A stretch of DNA of 64,000 nucleotides from Cymodocea nodosa (taxonomy: Eukaryota; Streptophyta; Magnoliopsida; Alismatales; Cymodoceaceae). Below, one piece after another: positions 14,201 through 50,600 of the stretch (position 1 is the first letter of the stretch; each line of letters starts with the position of its first letter). The notes below the pieces were generated by a model, which was not told the DNA's origin, searched no databases, and was given only the letters and a program-made list of their open reading frames with translations. The stretch is taken from the NCBI GenBank assembly GCA_036874045.1, contig JAZBRI010000003.1, forward strand, positions 3,484,501 through 3,548,500, in the 5' to 3' direction. The position numbers and the translations under genes were made by a program.

Positions 14201-14967
14201 AAGGTGCTTCTTGTATTTGCTCTCTCTGTCTCGTGATTACTCAGATGCAGATGGTGGGTCTGTCCGGTATATCAATAATTCATTGGTCTTAACTAAGTTC
14301 CTCACGTCCTGTAGATTTCTTCCAAGTAATAAAATCTATGACGTCCAGGGGTCTACAAATTTTTCCCGGCTGAAAATGTCCTAGATAGATATCTGTGCTA
14401 TTTCAAGCATAATCACTGGGGAACTTGATTTTGAATTTCTCATGACCAGTTTATTGTGCCAATGACAGTCCTTGTATGAAATATAACATCCTATTTATTG
14501 TCCATGCATGCAATCCGTTCATCACTAGGTACGAACGCAGTTTTGAAACGAAATGGCAAATCGTCACGATTTAGTTTACCTTGGAGCTGGGGAATGGACT
14601 GGGAACTCCGGAAGAGGGGGATGGCGGCTTCGTTCTGGGCGATGGAATAGAGAGCCTTGAGGAGACTCCGGAGGCCCCGAATCCTGAGGAAGGAGAACTC
14701 CGCCGCCGCATCACGGATGCCAGATCGGAGCGCCAACGTGATCTCTCTGTACCTTTTGCTGGTATTGAGCGTGGACACCAGATCACCAACCACCGCCAAC
14801 GGATCCTCCCGATGGTGCACGGCAGCGGCGGAAGAAGACGACGAGAAATCATCGCTACCTCCGCTAACACCCTTCTTTGCCAACGACATCTGTTCCTCGT
14901 TCCACTCCCGCATCTCTTCACGAGCCTCGGCCCAGCAGCCCCCTCTGACTTGGATTGAAACATCCAT
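5213..14967 (-). CDS. CDC14/SIN-component-like armadillo-fold protein, five exons, 330 aa
   Basis: The exons, in reading order, are 14967-14580, 11868-11663, 9044-8946, 7097-7024 and 5438-5213. All junctions are GT-AG and in frame (993 nt, TGA stop). The protein starts MDVSIQVRGGCWAEAREEMR. It continues with helical blocks typical of this family: an RYREITLALRSGIRDAAAEF block, then KICSPATDAEVALGLRVLEG, VLLNLLSTRRILEQSVCLDA, EFEACHGIDKIAELIKEEQV, and a C-terminal block with LVWAASQFGSTLDPEQR that ends ALELY. I recognise the plant family annotated as cell division control protein 14, SIN component (Pfam CDC14). In fission yeast Cdc14 binds the kinase Sid1 in the septation network; the plant role is not established. 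Introns of 1.5-2.7 kb carry repeats. An out-of-frame ATG lies 7 nt upstream of the chosen start. Confidence 0.88.
5720..6560 (-). mobile_element. Degenerate LINE reverse-transcriptase remnant in the last intron of the CDC14-like gene
   Basis: Read on the minus strand from about 6410 downwards, broken frames give blocks of a plant non-LTR reverse transcriptase: an RIPRNLLWWVLERKG-like block, IIKDMYERVV, a VCMLIVNDIVLVDE-like block holding the position of the usual F/YADD motif, and later LNT-type and MKWRNAS-like blocks. The order matches plant RTE-type LINEs. Many stops and frameshifts are present, so it is inactive. No poly(A) tail or target duplication was resolved. Confidence 0.6.
7290..7610 (+). 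mobile_element. Possible short LINE-like remnant
   Basis: A lysine/leucine-rich frame (CKQLQKHFNNFQDKIMALRK and following) resembles the linker between endonuclease and reverse transcriptase in plant L1 elements. It has stops and no catalytic motif, so the call is weak. It lies in the intron between exons 3 and 4 of the CDC14-like gene. Confidence 0.25.
9469..9968. repeat. Dispersed direct repeat pair of about 73 bp
   Basis: Segments 9469-9540 and 9896-9968 share a diverged common sequence, both containing TTTGCCTTCATT and ending GCCCAAGTTT. They are in the same orientation about 355 bp apart, in the third intron of the CDC14-like gene. They flank the 29-bp tandem array. They may be two copies of a repeat or the sign of a segmental duplication. 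Confidence 0.5.
9681..9767. repeat. Three tandem copies of a 29-bp unit
   Basis: Three adjacent 29-bp units, each beginning ATACATGTTT or ACACGTGTTT and ending TACTGAT, differ from each other at a few bases. It is a small minisatellite in an intron of the CDC14-like gene. Confidence 0.85.
10400..11600. other. Intron sequence without recognised features
   Basis: This part of the intron between exons 2 and 3 of the CDC14-like gene holds only short AT-rich frames. I see no protein similarity, tandem repeat or paired terminal repeat. Confidence 0.5.
12535..13790 (+). mobile_element. Truncated Ty1/copia fossil: 5' LTR plus part of gag
   Basis: This lies in the first intron of the CDC14-like gene, antisense to it. 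A probable LTR of about 130 bp runs 12535-12664, starting TGTTAG and ending CACA. It is followed at once by a primer-binding-like stretch (AGGTACTAGAGC) resembling the initiator-Met tRNA complement. After a GC-rich leader, a gag fragment of the UBN2 type (including WGTLKQMYRHKKNTLKVFE) lies around 13200-13710. Its nearest relative in the window is the copia element at 47071-51957. No protease, integrase, reverse transcriptase or 3' LTR is seen; the right boundary is approximate. It is broken. Confidence 0.65.
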
Positions 14968-16380
14968 CCCCCATGGATTGAAGATTTCTAAATATTTTGC
15001 ATATTATTTTAGATAATTGTAAAAGATTTTAGATCTTTAAATTATTTTAAATTTATAGTTCTTCACACCATTTTAGGTAAAGATGATCTAACGCTTCCCT
15101 TCTCGGATCGTCTTAATTCTTTCCCAGGGGCTATGAACATCTCTGAAATCATCTCTTCTACCAGACTCTTTATCTGTCTATTTTAGATAATATCGCATGA
15201 AATGTAGATAATTAAGATCATCCTCAATCGTTCGTTCGTTTGTTTTTTTTTCCTTAAAGAACGGAAGTACTACTTAAAATCATACAAATTGTGAGAACAG
15301 GGCAGTCGTATCAACAATTGACCACAAACGATTCTTCTCATAATTGAATGACATGCAGACTATTATTTGGCCAGTCGAGGCAGAAAACTCATTAAAAATA
15401 GTAAAATCCTCATTATTATTCGTAAGGAGCAATTCATCCTCCTACCCCCTTCATTCATCACGTAAAGAAAATTTTGAATTCAAATATATAAAAGATTTAC
15501 TAATATAAAAAAGAAGAAGTAAAACCTAACCCAAGTTACTAATTAACGAAAACAACTTCAGAACGTGATAATTCTAATCAAGAGTGCCACCGTAGTTCGC
15601 TTAAATAAAAGGAGAAGGTAAAACTTACACTAAAGTTAAAGGCTCGCACTACTTCAAATCTACGCTTATGTTTTTTTCCCAAAATCACTGTTCCTGACTT
15701 GAAGCTAAAGGCAACGACAGACAAACGCAATCATCACAATTTCCTTAGATTTAACTAAAACAAAAGAGGGAAGGAGATTATTATTGTACTTAAATTTCGG
15801 AAAAAATCACTGTTATAAAAAGAGAAAAAGCCAATGCAGGCAGATTAAGATCCTCTCCCATTCCCCAGAATCGAAGAGATCCGGGTTCTTGAACTCATCC
15901 TTTAACCGAAAGAACATGTTACGTGGTTTCGGTAAATAATTTAAGCACAGACATATATGTATATATATGCTAGAGTTGCCAGACTTTACTATTGATCACC
16001 ATGTTGTTAATTAAGAAGGAGCTCGTGTTTGCTAGAGTTAAGTCTAAGATAAGAACCATTCGAACATGTAAAAGACGAACGAGTTTGAAACAAGAATTCA
16101 CAGACTACTTGTGCATCCGATCGCCCCCGGAATTTATTTATTTAGACTGGTAGATGTATGCATGGGTGGATGGACGTATGGAGAGAAGAAGAAAGTCCGG
16201 TGACATATACGAAAACAAGTTGACAGGTAAATATATATGTATATGTTAAAAGGTGAAATCCGAATGGGTCCATTCAGTTAATCTTACCAAGACTTAATTT
16301 TTTACGTTGAATTTGATTCTTCGATTACGATTCCACAACTAATAGTTAATTTAATTAATTACCTTGTTAGCTTTGGTGGC
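14968..16380. other. Head-to-head intergenic interval, CDC14-like side
   Basis: AT-rich DNA between the divergent starts of the CDC14-like gene and SCL28. No exon is recognised. A pyrimidine-rich or TATA-like core for the minus-strand gene is not clear. ATATATGTATATATATG near 15953 is the main low-complexity stretch. Confidence 0.5.
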
Positions 16381-16413
16381 ACGGCTAAGTGTTGGGACCT
16401 GGGCGGGTGTTCC

Positions 16414-16423
16414 CCTAACGGTC
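16414..16423 (+). promoter_or_regulatory. MSA element 1 (M-phase-specific activator)
   Basis: CCTAACGGTC is an exact match to the MSA consensus YCYAACGGYY bound by three-repeat MYB (MYB3R) factors. It lies in a GC-rich patch about 1.36 kb before the SCL28 start codon. Confidence 0.65.
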
Positions 16424-16464
16424 GAATGGCACAGGAAAGGGAAGGGCGGCGAAGCGTCGACTTC

Positions 16465-16474
16465 AGCCGTTGAA
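16465..16474 (-). promoter_or_regulatory. MSA-like element, one mismatch
   Basis: On the minus strand TTCAACGGCT matches YCYAACGGYY except at the second base. It carries the AACGG core and lies between two perfect matches. Confidence 0.4.
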
Positions 16475-16477
16475 CGC

Positions 16478-16483
16478 CACGTG
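16478..16483. promoter_or_regulatory. G-box CACGTG
   Basis: A palindromic CACGTG core sits four bases from the MSA-like element. G-boxes bind bHLH and bZIP factors and are also used by BZR1-type brassinosteroid regulators. The link to this gene is inference. Confidence 0.45.
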
Positions 16484-16577
16484 AGTCCACGGGCGCGGGG
16501 TGCGGGGGGGGTGAGGAACGCACTCCCACCACGTTCCCGAATCCCGGACACGCGCCCGTACGGAACTGGGGCATCTC

Positions 16578-16587
16578 CCCAACGGTC
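16578..16587 (+). promoter_or_regulatory. MSA element 2
   Basis: CCCAACGGTC is an exact match to YCYAACGGYY, same strand as the SCL28 gene. Confidence 0.65.
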
Positions 16588-16611
16588 GTTCAATTCTGAC
16601 CATCGATCGTC

Positions 16612-16621
16612 CCCAACGGTC
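16612..16621 (+). promoter_or_regulatory. MSA element 3
   Basis: CCCAACGGTC is repeated here 34 bp after element 2, again an exact consensus match. The flanking CCCC is shared with element 2. Confidence 0.65.
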
Positions 16622-16639
16622 CTCTGCTCCGCTCCATCG

Positions 16640-17783
16640 GATCTCGATCCGACTGCGCCCGCCTGTCCGTGTCCTCGGGGGGACAAAAAAAAAAAGGTAA
16701 CTAACCAATCGTGGGAAGACGGTGCCGTCGCCTTCCCCTTCTTTTTCCCACTCCCTCCTCCTCCTCCTTCTTCTTCTTGTTGTCCCCCCCACACCCCTGT
16801 CGGTCACGTCATTTCACTTGACTCCAAACTGAGAGGAGCAGGGGCGGTTCCAGAACCAGAAGAAGAAGAAGAAGAAGAAGGAGGAAGAGGTGAAGCAGTA
16901 GCAACAACGGCACCACCCGCAGCAGTTGGAGACGACGGACTCTAGGAAGCAATAGATAGATGGATTATTATTAGCTCACCCACTTCGTTTCTCTGATTCC
17001 ATCTCCAACTAGTTTGATTGAGGGCTTCCTCCCCTTTAGGTAGATAGATAGATGCTTGCTTTCTGGTTCTCGTTTCTTTCATGGAGGATGTGCAAGATGT
17101 CCATGCCGTTCCTTTTTCCCAGAGATCTTCTCCTCGGCAAAACTTTAGCAAGCGCATCGACCATGTAACCCACCACCTCACCTTCCTGCTTCGCAGCCAT
17201 TCCTTCTAATGCCTCTTCCCCGTCGTTCCCTGTCGTAGATGTTTTTCTTCCTATCCTTTCATTCTTTTGCATAGATACACACATATAGAAATAGAAAAGA
17301 AAGATACATAGATACACACATACAAGATTTTTTCTCCTATTCCAGACACACATACTATTGTATCGTTTCTCAAAACCCATCACTCTTCTCTGTTGATTTC
17401 GAAGAGGACGGACACGTACCAACACTATTTTTTGATCCAAAGTTTGAGCCGTATTTTTTGATGTGAAATAAAAGGAAACATAGGTTTCGAGAATAACTAG
17501 AAAAAATCAAACAGAGGAGAAAGGGTGGGTGTGGGTTCATTCATTCATTCATTCAATCATTCTTTATTATTTTGGAATTCTTTCATTGGAAGTGTGGATA
17601 GATCGATAGATTACAGAGAAACAGGTGTGAGATTGAGAGAGCAAGTTCGTTTTGCTTCGTTGCGATTGCCATTCTAAAAGAAAAGAGAAACAGAGGATTG
17701 GATTCTACGAAAATACAGAGACGGGTCAAGCTTTCTTCTCCTCCTCGAACAGAAAAAGAAGAAAAGATTGGAGGGGGTAGAGG
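16640..17783 (+). other. Probable long 5' leader or promoter-proximal region of SCL28
   Basis: GC-rich up to about 16940, then mixed sequence with GAA, TAGA and TTCA short repeats (16858-16880, 17040-17053, 17537-17560), a texture common in plant 5' UTRs. If the MSA cluster is promoter-proximal, transcription would start near 16650-16800 and the leader would approach 1 kb, possibly with an intron. I could not place a TATA box or splice sites. Confidence 0.35.
17081..17209 (+). other. Candidate upstream ORF, 42 aa
   Basis: An ATG opens a 42-codon frame (beginning MEDVQDVHAVPFSQR) ending in TAA, 575 bp before the SCL28 start. If it lies in the leader it could lower translation. There is no evidence that the peptide is conserved, and frames this short arise by chance. 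Confidence 0.2.
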
Positions 17784-19751
17784 ATGTTGGCTGGGTGCTC
17801 TTCGACGCTACTGTCGCCGAGGCATCGATTGAGAAGTGACAGCAGTTCGTTGGCGTTCCAGCCGTGTCATCTCCAGGTGCAGGAGAAACTCCACCAACAC
17901 CAACACACTTCGCAGCAGAAGATGGGCACCCAGAGGTTGGACATGTCCTGCGGCTTCGCCCGCAAGGACGCTCCGAGGATCAGCATCTCCGTCGATAACG
18001 CGATGGAGAGGAGGAGCAGCTTGTCATTCAGGCAGAACCCAACAACCCCCACATCCCTGTCCGCGTCTCTCGTCTCCCCTCCCACGGTGGTACCGTGGGA
18101 AGCTAAGAGCGAGGTTGTCGAAGGGGTCGTCCAGTGGGAGAAAGGAGCGAAGGGGTTGAAGAGATTGTACGTTGACGACGACGAGTGTGGCGATGTTTGG
18201 GCAGGAAAGAGCAAGAGGATCAGAGGAAGCGACAGTGGCAGCAGTTGTAATCGGTTGCCACCGGCAGAGACAGCAGCGGCCGGAAAGCAGGAGAAGGAGG
18301 AGGAGGAAGTGTCGAAGGGGATCGAGCAGAAGGACGCAGCCATCGGCTCGACAAGCGAGCAGTATGAGGAGCAGCAGCATCAGCAGCCGCCGCCGCAGGG
18401 AAGGACGACCAGGTCGGGTTCCAGTTCGACACCGGATACGCCACACTGTTCGTCGTTTAGGAGGAGGAGGAGGAGTCCGAATGATGATGGTGATGATGAG
18501 TACTCGGAGAATGGAGCAGCGGCAGCATCAGCAAGAACTACGAGAAGAAGGGAGAACAACGAGGAGGCGAGGAAGACAGAGCGTCAGGGCCTGGAATTGA
18601 TGAACTCGCTGGTGGCTTGCTTGGAGTCGGTTGGCGCCGGGAACTACGTGGCGACGAACTACTTCCTCTCTCGACTGGGCCAGCTTGCTTCACCGGAAGG
18701 AACGGCGATCCACCGCGTGGTGGCTTACTTCACCGAGGCGCTGGCGCTGCGCGTGGGCAGGCTGTGGCCCCACACCTTCCGCGTCATCCCGCCCCCAAAG
18801 TTGCTTCAACTGGCAGACGACGAGGGAGACGCGACGGCGCTCCGGCTTCTGAACCACGTGAGTCCGATCCCCTCGTTCCTGCACTTCACCCTGAACGAGA
18901 TGCTGCTGAGAGCGTTCGAGGACAAGGACAGGGTTCACATCATCGACTTCGACATCAAGCAGGGTCTTCAATGGCCGGGTCTCCTCCAGAGCCTGGCCTC
19001 CAGGCCGAACCCCCCGAGCCACCTGAGGATCACGGGGGTCGGCGACTCCAGGCAAGAGCTGCAGGACACTGGCACGCGGCTCGCGGGATTCGCCAGGGCG
19101 CTGAATCTGCCCTTTGACTTCCACCCCGTGATCGACAGGTTCGAGGACGTCAGGTTCTGGATGCTGCACGTTAAGGAAGGCGAGCACGTTGCCGTCAACT
19201 GCGTGCTCCAACTCCACAAGGCGCTGTACGACGGGACCGGCGACGTCCTGATGGACTTCCTGGGGTTGGTGAGGAGCACCAATCCTACCATCATCCTCGT
19301 CGCGGAGCAAGAAGCCGAGCACGACGACCCGAGGTGGGAGGCGAGGCTGACGTCGGCGCTTCCCTACTACTCCGCCATCTTCGACGCCGTGGACGAAGGT
19401 TCCCGCCTGGCGGCCGACAGTCCCGCGAGGATCAGGATAGAGGAGATGTACGCGCGGGAGATCAGGAACATAGTCGCCTGCGAGGGGAGCGAGAGGGTGG
19501 AGAGGCACCGGGGGTTCTCGACCTGGAGAGGGCTGATGGAGGACAGGGCGGGGTTCCGGTGCGTGGAAGTCGGGGAGAGGGAGGTGATGCAGGGCAGAAT
19601 TCTCCTCAGGATGTTCGGCGGTGGGGAGGAGGATGGCGGCGACGACGGCGGATTCGACGTGGCGGTGCAGGGCGATGACAAGGCCGGGCTGACGCTGACG
19701 TGGCGAGACCAGCCATTGTACACGGTGTCCGCGTGGGCGCCACCAAGCTAG
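17784..19751 (+). CDS. SCL28: GRAS transcription regulator, SCARECROW-LIKE 28 type (orthologue of rice DLT), intronless
   Basis: A single exon encodes 655 aa. The N-terminus MLAGCSSTLLSPRHRLRS is the hallmark of the SCL28 subgroup. Residues 20-265 are low-complexity (Ser, Glu, Gln, Arg rich) and probably disordered. The GRAS domain runs from about residue 268: leucine-heptad region I (LELMNSLVACLE), VHIID at 384-388 within RVHIIDFDIKQGLQWP, a second leucine region, the PFYRE region (ALPYYSAIF ... REIRNIVACEG), and the SAW region ending PLYTVSAWAPPS (Trp651). In Arabidopsis SCL28 is a MYB3R target that acts in G2 control of cell size. Rice DLT acts in brassinosteroid-linked growth and tillering. 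Three perfect MSA elements lie upstream, which fits the same control. High GC content matches monocot genes. The protein looks intact. Confidence 0.95.
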   Translation: MLAGCSSTLLSPRHRLRSDSSSLAFQPCHLQVQEKLHQHQHTSQQKMGTQRLDMSCGFARKDAPRISISVDNAMERRSSLSFRQNPTTPTSLSASLVSPPTVVPWEAKSEVVEGVVQWEKGAKGLKRLYVDDDECGDVWAGKSKRIRGSDSGSSCNRLPPAETAAAGKQEKEEEEVSKGIEQKDAAIGSTSEQYEEQQHQQPPPQGRTTRSGSSSTPDTPHCSSFRRRRRSPNDDGDDEYSENGAAAASARTTRRRENNEEARKTERQGLELMNSLVACLESVGAGNYVATNYFLSRLGQLASPEGTAIHRVVAYFTEALALRVGRLWPHTFRVIPPPKLLQLADDEGDATALRLLNHVSPIPSFLHFTLNEMLLRAFEDKDRVHIIDFDIKQGLQWPGLLQSLASRPNPPSHLRITGVGDSRQELQDTGTRLAGFARALNLPFDFHPVIDRFEDVRFWMLHVKEGEHVAVNCVLQLHKALYDGTGDVLMDFLGLVRSTNPTIILVAEQEAEHDDPRWEARLTSALPYYSAIFDAVDEGSRLAADSPARIRIEEMYAREIRNIVACEGSERVERHRGFSTWRGLMEDRAGFRCVEVGEREVMQGRILLRMFGGGEEDGGDDGGFDVAVQGDDKAGLTLTWRDQPLYTVSAWAPPS

Positions 19752-30400: not shown

Positions 30401-31469
30401 CAATTAATCTAATAATAAAATCTATATAGTTTCTTCCACCATTCTAGGTATTAATAAGGAAAAAAAGAGAGTGTCGCTAGAAAAATTACTTGCTGTTACC
30501 ACTAGGAAATCCCTTCTCAACAAAAACGTCATCAACTTTGACAATTGTAAGCATCAATCAACAAAAACATTTCGATCACCATACCATCCAAAGTTATTTT
30601 TATTGGACAAAAAAAAACAAATTAGAATCCTAAATGCCATATGCATAATGCAGTACCTTTTTGCACCCGTATTTCCCCATAATATCGTACAAGGTAATTG
30701 AGCCAATAAGATTGTTATTGTAGTACATAAGAGGCTTGGCAACACTCTCACTAACAGCCTTCAAGCCGGAAAAATGGATTACAGCATCAAATCTGCATCA
30801 TCAAATATTGGTTGCATTTTCTACATAAATAGTGTCTTGCATCTGCCTTAACTTCTGTATAAAAAAAAAATTTCGTTGCACACTGAAACCAATGATACCA
30901 TCGATTCCTGTACGCGGTGACAAATAGTCAGAAATAAACATAAAAAGGTCAAATAACTTGCTTTGTTTCAGAGAAGAGCTTCTCCAACAGTTCCTTGTCG
31001 CGAATATCCCCCTACAACAAATTAGACATAGATCATACACATATTGCATTGCAAGCCTAAATAGTGATCGGATTTTGCACAATCACCATCATCATCATAG
31101 TAATGAGCGAGAATTAACAGACGCACACTCAAAAAATAAGGGGAAAAAAAAGATTAAAGTGATGAAGCATGCAAGCAAGCAAGCAACCAGGTGAAAGGTT
31201 AGTTGGTTGGAGAGATGGGGGCCGGCTAGTTCCCTGGTCCTCTCCACGGCCTCCTCAACGGCATTGTCGAGGTTGTCAACGATGGAGACCGTGAAGCCCT
31301 CCTTGAGGAGCTGCAGGACGGTGTGGGTGCCGACGAATCCCGCCCCGCCCGTCACCAGAATGCTCTTCCGCATCTCTCCGTTGCTGCTGATGTACGAGTC
31401 CATCGTACCGTTGCTCGCAACCATCGAGGAAGCAATCGGAAGTCTAACGGAGGAATTATTGCGCACCAT
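27430..31469 (-). CDS. UGE: UDP-glucose 4-epimerase, nine exons, 379 aa
   Basis: The exons, in reading order, are 31469-31188, 31011-30962, 30792-30657, 29047-28946, 28808-28581, 28063-27982, 27880-27798, 27698-27607 and 27514-27430 (TGA). The total is 1140 nt and every junction keeps frame. The enzyme interconverts UDP-glucose and UDP-galactose for cell-wall and galactolipid synthesis, in the cytosol. It is a short-chain dehydrogenase/reductase with bound NAD. The Rossmann motif TGGAGFVG is at residues 40-47, the SSSATVY strand at 160-166, and the YxxxK catalytic pair is Tyr186/Lys190 (YGRTK). [20 protein letters not shown] and [11 protein letters not shown] are further family signatures. 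The C-terminus is complete. The N-terminal ~35 residues before the Rossmann strand are longer than usual; Met16, Met23 or Met33 may be the true start. Eight introns are GT-AG except intron 2, which is GC-AG. Confidence 0.95.
29048..30656 (-). other. Large third intron of the epimerase gene
   Basis: This 1.6-kb GT-AG intron separates the exons encoding YGCKK and [10 protein letters not shown]. It includes a C-rich non-coding patch at about 29560-29840 and AT-rich DNA elsewhere. No nested gene or identifiable transposon was seen. Confidence 0.6.
30793..30961 (-). other. GC-AG intron (second intron of the epimerase gene)
   Basis: Reading the minus strand, exon 2 ends GAA ACA AA and the intron starts GCAAGT at 30961 and ends GCAG at 30793. 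The split codon AA/A gives Lys111, and the protein reads LFSETK then FDAVIHFSG as in the family. The nearest GT (30957) gives a phase that meets a stop codon at once in the next exon. GCAAGT is the known strong consensus of GC-type donors. Confidence 0.85.
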
Positions 31470-32929
31470 TTGCAAACAAGAAACAACCTGACGAGAATGG
31501 AAGGATGCGATTTCTATTCCGGGGAACACGATGCGGCGGTGCGGTGGACGAACCAGACTTTGCCCCAAAGGAAAAAGGCAAATCTAGAAGAATATATTTT
31601 TGAGTAATTGCGGTGGTGGTATCTTCAATGTCACTGAAGATTTTCATTTAAAATAATTACTTTAGTATTTTCATTTACATTTGTAATACCTACGAGTGTT
31701 TAGTGATTGACAGAATTCAACTGACGTAAATGAAAATTATTAAATTTCGTCAGAATGTCGTTAGTGTGCATTACATTTGACGGAAAGGAAAGTCGAATTT
31801 TAATGTTGTATAAAATCCAAAAATTTCATTTACCGTCAGAAAATTTCTGATCGCCTCCATTCAGAAAATTTTCCTCCCTCTCTCGCGAAACCCTCGACCG
31901 AGACTTCTCTCGTGACGTTCGCTTGTAGATTCGCCTACGAAAGCTTCTCTCCTTCTCGCGCTTGCGCTGGTAGTGGCCCGGTCTCGCGTCTTCTCTAGAC
32001 TCCTCTCCACGCTAGTCCCTGCTCCCTCTGGCCTGCAATCGACTCGCTTCGCCCCCTAGCGCCTTCTTCTCCATGTCGATCCCCTATCGTCTTCCTCGCT
32101 CGCGTTGGACCCCGACTGCCGCCCATCACATCCTCTACATTGTCGATCCGTTCTTACCAGGTTCGATGCATTACCCAATCTATTCCAGTAACTTAGTTTT
32201 TCGATTTCGCGGTTTCGCCTTTTCTGGCGGAAAATTTTTTCGATAGGGGGCGAAGCTTTTCTTACTTCGCGACGTTTGCCCACGGATTCGTCGTGTGCAT
32301 TTCCCCTGAAACGTCGTCCTCGCGATCAAACCCTCGTAAAGCTTCTCTCGGCCTGGTGGAGTTTGGGCTTGCATCAGATGTCTTAGGTAGCATTTTAGAG
32401 ATCATAAAGTCAGAGCAAGGCGATGCTGTTCTAGAGCACATAAAGTTAAGCTCAAGCCTGCGATTGGAAGATTTCCGGCCACCACATGGCACTAAATCCA
32501 GGAAACTGGACGCGTTTCTTTAGGTGTTGAATGCCACCTGAATGCTTTGATAATGGTGTTTGATCTTCGGTGCCTGGGTTTGTTTTTTCGATACCATTGG
32601 CTTTCCATGGTATATCATCATGCATCAATGCTGATCATACATAACCTTCTACGATTTTATCACATTAATCAGGGGTTGGCATTCTTCCTTCAAGTTTTAA
32701 AGGGGGTTGCATTACCAAAGTAAAATTTAGGCATTAGTTGTAAATATAATATGCCAAGTATTGTTTTTAATAAATCCATCATTTAGGACTTTCCTTATTA
32801 ACCCTCATTAACACTAGATTACATAGAAAACATTTTCTTTACTAAACACTTTGATAATAATTTCTTTTTATTTGTTTTGAAAGAGAAACAAATTATAACC
32901 CATATGTGCCCTGGGTTTACCTAAATAAA

Positions 32930-47600: not shown

Positions 47601-50600
47601 TGGGTCAACTGAAGTTGTTGACCTAGTGCAGAAGGTGGTTGTTGAAACCACCGGGGCTACAGAAGGTGGCTGCTAAAACCACCAAGGCTGTAGAAGGTGG
47701 CTGCTGAAACCATCTACAGGGTCCAATTGTTGGCTTAATGGCATTTAGAGAGTTTGTGATTCGTCCCTTGTCGGGGCCATCTATGAAACTTAATGAACTT
47801 AACTATTACACATGGTCATTGAGCTTCCTCACCTTTATAGCTGCTCAAAGGAAGAGCAAACACTTAACCCAACTGTCGATGGATATCAAGGAAGCAGGGT
47901 ATGACGACTGGTTTGCTGATGATGCTACTGTAGTTACTTGACTAGAGAATAGCATTGAGCCGGCCATAGCTAAGGGTGTCATGATGCTTCGCCTGGCCAA
48001 ACTGATATGGGATACTCTTAGACAGATGTATGCGGAAGAGAGGAACATCCTGAAGGTGTATGATGTTTATGAGCAGATTTTCACACTCAAGATAGGCAGT
48101 CAATCTGTGTAGGAGTATTATGGGACGATAAGGTCTCTCTTTGAGGAGTTGAATGCTCTACAGCCTCCGACCACTAACTTGACCACACTTCAGAGGTACA
48201 AGAACGATCTACAGGTGGTTGCATTTTTGTTTGGTCTCCCTTCGAAGTTAGTCTCTCAGGTCAGGGGACACTTACTAGAGGGAGATACTACACTTGATCT
48301 AGGATTTGCTTTTGCTCGAGTCCTCTGTATCTACAAGGTAGGCAATATGATTGTTATAGAAACTCAAGATAGCTCAACTTTGATAGTAAAAGGGGCATCT
48401 GGCTAGTAGGAGAGTTGTCCCAACTTTGTCTCTAGCCAAGGGAGATCTGGGCGACGTAGGACTCCTTGCATTCATTGTGGTAAAGTTAACCACCGTTCTA
48501 AAAAGTGTTGGGAGAAATTTGGCAAGCCAACCTAGGCGAGAGTGGTGACAGAATCTGATGGTGGTATATCTGAGGAGGCTTTTGTGGTGATTACTCAGTA
48601 ATAGTATGAGAGGTTGAAGAGAGCACAAGGCCTCAATCACACTGTTGTGGCTTCCTTAGCTTCCACTTCTAATATGACTGTGCGTACAAGTGAGACACAA
48701 TTTTGGATTATCGACTCTGGTGTCTCTTAGCACATGACAGGTTGTCTTACCATTTTCTCTCGCCTTCAGAAAATTCTAAGTCTTCACAGTGTCATTGTGG
48801 CTGATGGCCGCTCATGCCCGATATCTGGACGTGGTATTGTTGAGGCCATTCCAGATATTTGACTTCAGAACACCCTTCTTGTCCCTGAACTTTCCGTTAA
48901 CTTGATTTCAATTAGTGCCATTACTAGCTAGTTATCTTGTTTTGTGACATTCTTTCCCTTTCATTGTATCTATCAGGATCTACAAATGAGGATGAGAATT
49001 GGTTTGGGCCATAAAAGGAGTACCGAGGAGTATGTACTTGCTCAAGATACACATTCACGTGGTCTAGTTGTCGTGCTATCCTCCACTGCTGTGTCACCTC
49101 TTCTCTGGCATTGTTGTCTTGGTTACCCCTTAATCCACAAACTGTAGCAGGTATTACCGTGAATTGATATTTCTGAGTTTCAATGTGAGTCCTGTCAAGT
49201 TGGTAAACATAGTCGTTCTTCTTACCCCCGTATGTCTCTTACAAAGAGTCTTGCTATATTTGATCTGATTCATTGTGATGTTTGGGGTTCAAGTCGAGTA
49301 ACTTCTTTAAGAGATTATTGATATTATCTTATGTTAGTTGAGATTTCTCTCGTGTCTGTTGGGCATACTTGTTAAAGGACAGAAAATCTATTGTTACTTA
49401 TATTGAAAATTTTGTTTGTGAAATTAATACTCAGTTTTCTGTGACTCCAAAATGTCTTCGGACTGATAACGTCCTTGAGTTTGTGAACTCTCATTTTCAA
49501 AACCTCTGCCTTTCCAAGGGGATCCTTCACTAGACTATGTGTTCTCACATCTCCCAACAAAATGGGTTGACTGAGAGGAAACATCGTCATTTACTGGATG
49601 TCACGCAGACTCTTCTGGTTCACATGAATGTTCCTAAGTATTTTTGGCTTGAAGTTGTTCTTACCGCCGCCTACCTTATTAATAGGATGCCTTTTTCTTT
49701 CCTTAAGGGAGAGGTTCCTCTACACTGCCTCTTTCTTGATGGGGAATTGTTTCTCCTCACTCCTAGAGTGTTTGGGTGCACAGCCTATATTCAGGATCTT
49801 AGTCTGGGACTGGACAAGTTTGATGCTCGTGCCCTTAAGTGTGTATTTGTTGGGTACTCTAAGACTCAGAAGGAGTATAGATGTTATCACCCTCATACAA
49901 GACGATACTTCATTTCCTTTGATGCCACCTTTTTAGAGGATCAGCCTTACTTTTTGCAACAGGTAAATTCTATTGAGGAGTCTAACACCACTAGTCCTTT
50001 ATTGCCCTACCTCACTTCTGATAACAAACATGTGGAGGAGACCCTCAACATAGCTGGTGCAGACAGACCTATGTAGGTGTATCAAAGGCGACAACGACAC
50101 GAGGTTGTCTCTGTAGCTCCACCAAGGACCGTCTTAGATGCAAATCCTACTACCACTTCAGATGAATTATCGATTGCTCTTCGTAAAGGTATACACTCTT
50201 GCACACAACACCCCATCTCCTAGTTTATTTCTTATGATCACCTTACCTCCTCCTGCCGCAATTTTGCTCTATCTGTTATGTCTGAGGGTGTACCTAAGAC
50301 ATACTAGGAAGTTTTACAATGTCCTTCTTGGAAACAAGCCATGAATCAGGAGATGCAAGCCTTATGGTCACGAGGTGCATGGGAGCTGGTTCCTTGCCCT
50401 ACTGATGCCAATCTAGTATCTTGCAAATGAGTTTTCACTATGAAGTTCAAACCAGATGGTACAGTAGAGAGACACAAGGCACGACTTGTGGCTAAGGGCT
50501 TTACCTAAGAACATGGGGTTGATTATGCAGAAACTTTCTCTCCAATGGCTCGCCTCAATTCTATTAGAGTATTACTATTTATGACTATTAACAAGAATTG

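Follow-up and report, generated by a model that had tools for sequence, protein, structure and literature searches.

The question raised by this locus in Cymodocea nodosa is which gene, if any, is served by a compact array of MSA elements lying more than 1 kb ahead of the start codon of a GRAS gene. The reading preferred here, to which a probability of roughly 85% can be assigned, is that positions 16414-16621 form the proximal, MYB3R-controlled G2/M promoter of a single SCL28/DLT gene, as in Arabidopsis. All coordinates given without a contig or locus prefix refer to the window, which is the whole 64,000-base stretch of DNA that was analysed.

Exact matches to the MSA consensus YCYAACGGYY occur three times in the window, all on the plus strand: CCTAACGGTC at 16414-16423 and CCCAACGGTC at both 16578-16587 and 16612-16621. 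A fourth site, TTCAACGGCT, is present on the minus strand at 16465-16474 with one mismatch, and a G-box (CACGTG) lies at 16478-16483. Thus, 208 bp of DNA (16414-16621) contain three perfect MSA sites, one imperfect site and a CACGTG motif, such that the MSA element is repeated upstream of the GRAS gene. Each of these sites had been reported in the initial annotation and was confirmed at the same position. Motif scanning for E2F, TCP and CHR-type sequences revealed none near the cluster.

The initial annotation had further held that such a density of sites would be improbable by chance, and this view was borne out by dinucleotide shuffling of the surrounding DNA. Three perfect sites were obtained in 0 of 4,000 shuffles of positions 15400-18600, and in 0 of 20,000 shuffles of either 16300-16800 or 16414-16621. 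For the window as a whole, shuffled sequences contained a mean of 0.59 perfect sites, and 3 of 100 reached a total of three. The window holds 43 AACGG cores against 54 expected, i.e. there is no enrichment, and 19 sites with at most one mismatch against 20.9 expected. Given the window-wide shuffles and the lack of core enrichment, the signal resides in the clustering of the sites and not in their number. Judged locally, the MSA cluster exceeds chance.

Downstream of the cluster, a single open frame on the plus strand (17784-19751), preceded by an in-frame stop at 17778, encodes a predicted protein of 655 residues; the GC3 value of the gene is 0.794. A GRAS domain (PF03514) was assigned by Pfam to the C-terminal residues 273-651 with an E value of 2.6e-115. 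Alignment with the Arabidopsis SCL28 sequence gave 44% identity over 679 aligned positions (498 bits) and spanned residues 1-652 of the query, such that the N terminus was included. When 12 GRAS open reading frames of the genome were compared with the same sequence, the runner-up scored 216 bits, and the GRAS sequence of the genome most like the predicted protein itself shares 39% identity with it, confined to the domain. Given the Pfam assignment, the difference in score and the similarity beyond the domain, the predicted gene was taken as the single SCL28/DLT orthologue found in this genome.

The cluster sits 1.16-1.37 kb before the SCL28 ATG, and its link to the gene therefore rests on a long 5' leader, itself a presumed feature. 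The putative leader (16650-17783, plus strand) was modelled on that of tobacco NtSCL28, for which transcription starts 921 bp before the ATG (PMC10905365). Scans of this region for motifs and open reading frames showed splice-like sites as well as ten ATGs ahead of that of SCL28; no TATA-like sequence was found over 16240-17784. Pyrimidines predominate at ∼16730-16800, and transcription probably starts just past the cluster, at about 16650-16850. An alternative arrangement, which we regard as unlikely, is that the MSA array mainly serves a divergent minus-strand open reading frame at 14491-14967, or acts as a two-way promoter for both genes, with a separate SCL28 start nearer the ATG. The cluster lies at similar distances from the two start codons, 1.45 kb from the divergent one and 1.16 kb from that of SCL28, and no TATA-like site marks a start beside the cluster. 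Set against this arrangement are the length of the tobacco leader and the presence of MSA elements upstream of SCL28 orthologues in Arabidopsis, tobacco and, according to a published list, ginger (PMC8964727, PMC10905365 and PMC9859583). The divergent frame encodes 158 residues and returned no Pfam match. Elsewhere in the window, a retrotransposon polymerase fragment (Pfam SH3_retrovirus) was noted on the plus strand at 49537-50076, and the minus strand was seen to carry an NAD-dependent epimerase/dehydratase exon at 31095-31568.

The SCL28 locus was compared with other GRAS loci of the same genome over the 3.2 kb that precede the GRAS domain, a stretch that includes part of the coding sequence. 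Here, 20 control loci were retained out of 33 domain matches following the exclusion of second exons, short pieces and a split domain (C14:2903215). The SCL28 locus carries three perfect sites and four cores within 210 bp of this stretch, whereas one perfect site was found at 1 of the 20 controls and two or more at none. The AACGG core is less discriminating: at least two cores within 210 bp were present at 7 of the 20 control loci, and three cores at one. The occurrence of two or more cores in 210 bp was therefore rejected as a marker.

Seven candidate G2/M genes, comprising six cyclin loci and KNOLLE, were also considered. Two of the cyclin loci (L048 and L050) each combine two perfect sites with an additional core within 210 bp, and a third (L047) has one perfect site and a core. 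No perfect site was present at the other three (L049, L051 and L052), cyclins of tentative class for which the stretch read may miss the true promoter; in L052, two AACGG cores lie 147 bp apart. KNOLLE (L046) likewise has no perfect site, and instead carries a pair of cores flanking a G-box, at 122 and 154 bp ahead of the ATG. In these small samples, at least two perfect sites were found in 2 of 7 G2/M candidates versus 0 of 20 GRAS controls, and at least one in 3 of 7 versus 1 of 20. MYB3R-like loci with several repeat exons are present in the same genome on contigs C2 (28058291-28063439), C8 (6001486-6003708) and C13 (1780722-1782645).

The G-box within the cluster had been put forward in the initial annotation as a possible source of hormone input, a proposal that was not supported by comparison with the control loci. 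That this element adds brassinosteroid input, through BZR1, to G2/M control is improbable. In its favour, a distance of 11 bp separates the CACGTG motif and the reverse MSA core, the KNOLLE-like promoter contains an MSA core, a G-box and a second MSA core within 40 bp, and DLT functions in the brassinosteroid signalling of rice (PMC10761098). Yet the motif is common: the control GRAS regions, each 3.2 kb long, contain 16 copies in total, spread over 10 of the 20 loci, and the window has 11, where dinucleotide shuffles predict 4.4 and none of 100 reached 11. Given that comparable regions carry one G-box per 4 kb, its presence in the cluster is unremarkable, and nothing about the site itself indicates importance. 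Proximity of a G-box to one of four cores spread over 208 bp is not unusual; the expectation of ∼0.05 G-boxes in 208 bp applies to a site that was chosen after the fact. The element expected near the start of transcription in a BZR1-controlled promoter is CGTG(T/C)G, and no such sequence was found on either strand between 16000 and 17784.

The KNOLLE-like triplet of core, G-box and core (L046:332-368, corresponding to C5:19568831-19568867, before the minus-strand ATG at 19568713) resembles the reverse MSA site and G-box at 16465-16483. This triplet is the only hint that pairing of the two motifs could matter; an AACGG core and a G-box no more than 12 bases apart were also observed at 1 of the 20 control GRAS loci (L055). 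It is similarly improbable that, in this lineage, the MSA array and G-box constitute a composite module, also present at KNOLLE, by which transcription in G2/M is gated by a factor linked to hormones or light. Such a module, if real, would help to account for the role of DLT in the brassinosteroid signalling of rice, in which Arabidopsis SCL28 apparently has no counterpart role.

Perfect MSA sites number 2,317 in the 374.6 Mb of the genome (28 contigs), equivalent to one per 162 kb. The pair scan was confined to perfect sites on the same strand separated by no more than 200 bases. This yielded 27 rows, counted as 23 places, against about 1.5 pairs expected. A permuted motif in which CpG was kept gave 71 pairs genome-wide, a raw count that carries no per-site ratio, and many of these were in repeats as judged by look from the listing; pairs by themselves thus prove little. 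Furthermore, 5 of the 23 places (L024, L025, L026, L035 and L037) share a common repeat sequence, each copy of which has a perfect MSA pair, and this family is a means by which MYB3R-type sites could be disseminated through the genome. A weaker match of 319 bases is common to L019 and L029. Given the permuted-motif result and the repeat sequence, a genome-wide Poisson argument was rejected as proof, and the local shuffles and the GRAS control were relied on instead. Three same-strand perfect sites within 210 bp were found at 4 of the 23 places: the SCL28 locus, an apparent coding stretch (L030/L031), L033/L034, and a region upstream of a CRAL-TRIO protein (L038/L039). The weakest alternative, that the SCL28 cluster has no function and arose by chance in DNA rich in G+C and CpG, accords with the lack of AACGG enrichment in the window, with perfect-site pairs in repeats and apparent coding sequence and with the yield of the permuted motif, but is very improbable in the face of 0 of 20,000 local shuffles with three perfect sites, the lack of two perfect sites at any of 20 other GRAS loci and the occurrence of such sites at orthologues in other plants.

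Genes adjoining the pairs were sought at the 17 non-repeat places other than SCL28, where 181 open frames of at least 70 residues were found. The Pfam scan covered 20 of these frames, picked by eye, at 12 of the 17 places, with L019, L028, L029, L032 and L036 lying outside it. Matches were obtained to a malectin-domain protein (L014), to the CRAL-TRIO protein (L038) and to Exo70 (L023), in the last case with the MSA sites beyond the 3' end of the frame. Two other matches, both weak and below the cut-off, involved FH2 at L030 and an integrase core at L033. The eye-picked frames at the remaining seven of the 12 scanned places gave no Pfam match; one of these places, L015, is upstream of a cyclin-B-like gene that was found by a separate route. 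The Pfam scan of these pair places thus does not establish paired MSA sites as a general marker of G2/M genes.

Several individual loci merit mention in their own right. At L038:1501-1694 (C21:2489647-2489840), three perfect same-strand MSA sites lie within 194 bp, ∼100-300 bp ahead of the first ATG of the CRAL-TRIO frame, which we take to be patellin-like; this is a candidate for a further G2/M gene. Paired perfect sites at L020:1501-1558 (C2:21365824-21365881) are upstream of a 399-residue frame that includes an acidic region and, on visual inspection, a membrane segment, and that returned no Pfam match; it is possibly an uncharacterised G2/M gene. A copy of plastid rbcL is present at L073:1450-2706 (C17:1101777-1102700), with 418 open codons covering Rubisco residues 73-476 and the N-terminal part outside the frame. 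The best PDB matches of this copy, 1wdd and 5wsk, presumably the rice and wheat enzymes, score 2 bits ahead of 5iu0, presumably that of Arabidopsis. Like the GC3 of the SCL28 gene, this result agrees, if weakly, with a monocot genome.

The observed basis for the reading of positions 16414-16621 as the MYB3R-controlled promoter of SCL28 consists of the clustered sites themselves, the assignment of the downstream gene, the clusters at some cyclin-B-like genes, the cores at KNOLLE and the presence of MYB3R-like genes. We infer that MYB3R proteins bind these sites in C. nodosa and that expression peaks in G2/M. According to this reading, the three forward and one reverse AACGG sequences would be MSA elements bound by three-repeat MYB proteins (MYB3R), and the transcript, like that of tobacco NtSCL28, would have a leader of ∼1 kb. 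Activator MYB3Rs would switch SCL28 on in G2/M and repressor MYB3Rs would hold it off outside this phase. SCL28 made in G2/M may then pair with its AP2 partner SMOS1 to increase the amount of SMR-class CDK inhibitors, and the raised inhibitors would slow G2 and set cell size. The initial annotation is well supported, by indirect evidence, in its MSA/MYB3R interpretation, as regards ortholog identity, a cluster not due to chance and the recurrence of AACGG or MSA sites in orthologous promoters (Arabidopsis, tobacco and both ginger relatives), and is unsupported in its suggestion of hormone input through the G-box. The status of Arabidopsis SCL28 as a MYB3R target, on which that annotation drew, and G2/M expression of a monocot orthologue, which it had anticipated, both find support in the published work considered below.

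The MSA array at SCL28 is a further instance of a known mode of control, an expected extension and no surprise. Nevertheless, it is of moderate interest, given that a 2022 paper treats the rice case as open, stating that MYB3R control and G2/M-specific expression of DLT are unknown (PMC10761098). Taken together, the ginger list, the Brachypodium single-cell data and the perfect MSA array described here, in an apparent monocot with one SCL28 copy, make it probable that MYB3R control of SCL28 is older than the split between monocots and eudicots. If so, the effects of DLT on stature and cell size would be cell-cycle effects as well as brassinosteroid effects.

A close parallel is with the orthologous gene of Arabidopsis, for which direct MYB3R control is backed by ChIP-seq, DAP-seq and mutants; its promoter contains four AACGG sites, mutation of which (to ATTGG) renders a reporter essentially undetectable (PMC8964727). 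These sites are located at -34, -73 and -101 in the forward orientation and at -54 in the reverse (PMC10905365), so that both promoters have three forward cores and one reverse core, the latter inside the array. The Arabidopsis array is more compact, occupying ∼70 bp (-34 to -101 from the start), compared with 208 bp located more than 1 kb before the ATG here. MYB3R binding, G2/M timing and the need for the sites are established in Arabidopsis and are predictions for the array described here. Tobacco NtSCL28 is likewise orthologous and has forward MSA sites and a long leader (921 bp versus the ∼1 kb proposed here). By contrast, this eudicot promoter has two forward sites only (-220 and -191); G2/M activity and a response to hyperactive MYB3R were demonstrated for it (PMC10905365), whereas the present promoter was read as sequence.

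Among monocots, the MSA element was listed for 6 of 66 GRAS promoters of ginger (2 kb each), including those of ZoGRAS#65 and ZoGRAS#66, which are named as close relatives of AtSCL28 (PMC9859583). The same report gives two members for the ginger DLT subfamily, taken here as this pair. The chance that both relatives would fall among the 6 of 66 is 0.007, a value to be read with the proviso that the genes may be recent duplicates; the link between SCL28 relatives and the MSA element is drawn here and not by the authors of that report. The ginger genes thus resemble the present one as monocot relatives of AtSCL28 with an MSA element in the 2 kb upstream, and differ in that the available part of the report gives membership of a list, without the number, spacing and position of sites described here. 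An MSA-like element also appears in a banana GRAS paper, in a listing without gene names (PMC10502232). In the open-licence literature, consulted mostly at the level of listings, no published MSA sites in a monocot SCL28/DLT promoter were found beyond the ginger list, and the available portions of the reports on rice DLT/SMOS2 and Brachypodium BdGRAS32 carry no mention of MSA sites or MYB3R control (PMC10761098 and PMC13291820). Both genes belong to the same GRAS clade as the gene at 17784-19751. More than 67% of the cells that express BdGRAS32, the DLT orthologue of Brachypodium, are G2/M cells, and the mutant has smaller and more numerous cells; the gene limits division and is expressed for the most part in G2/M cells (PMC13291820).
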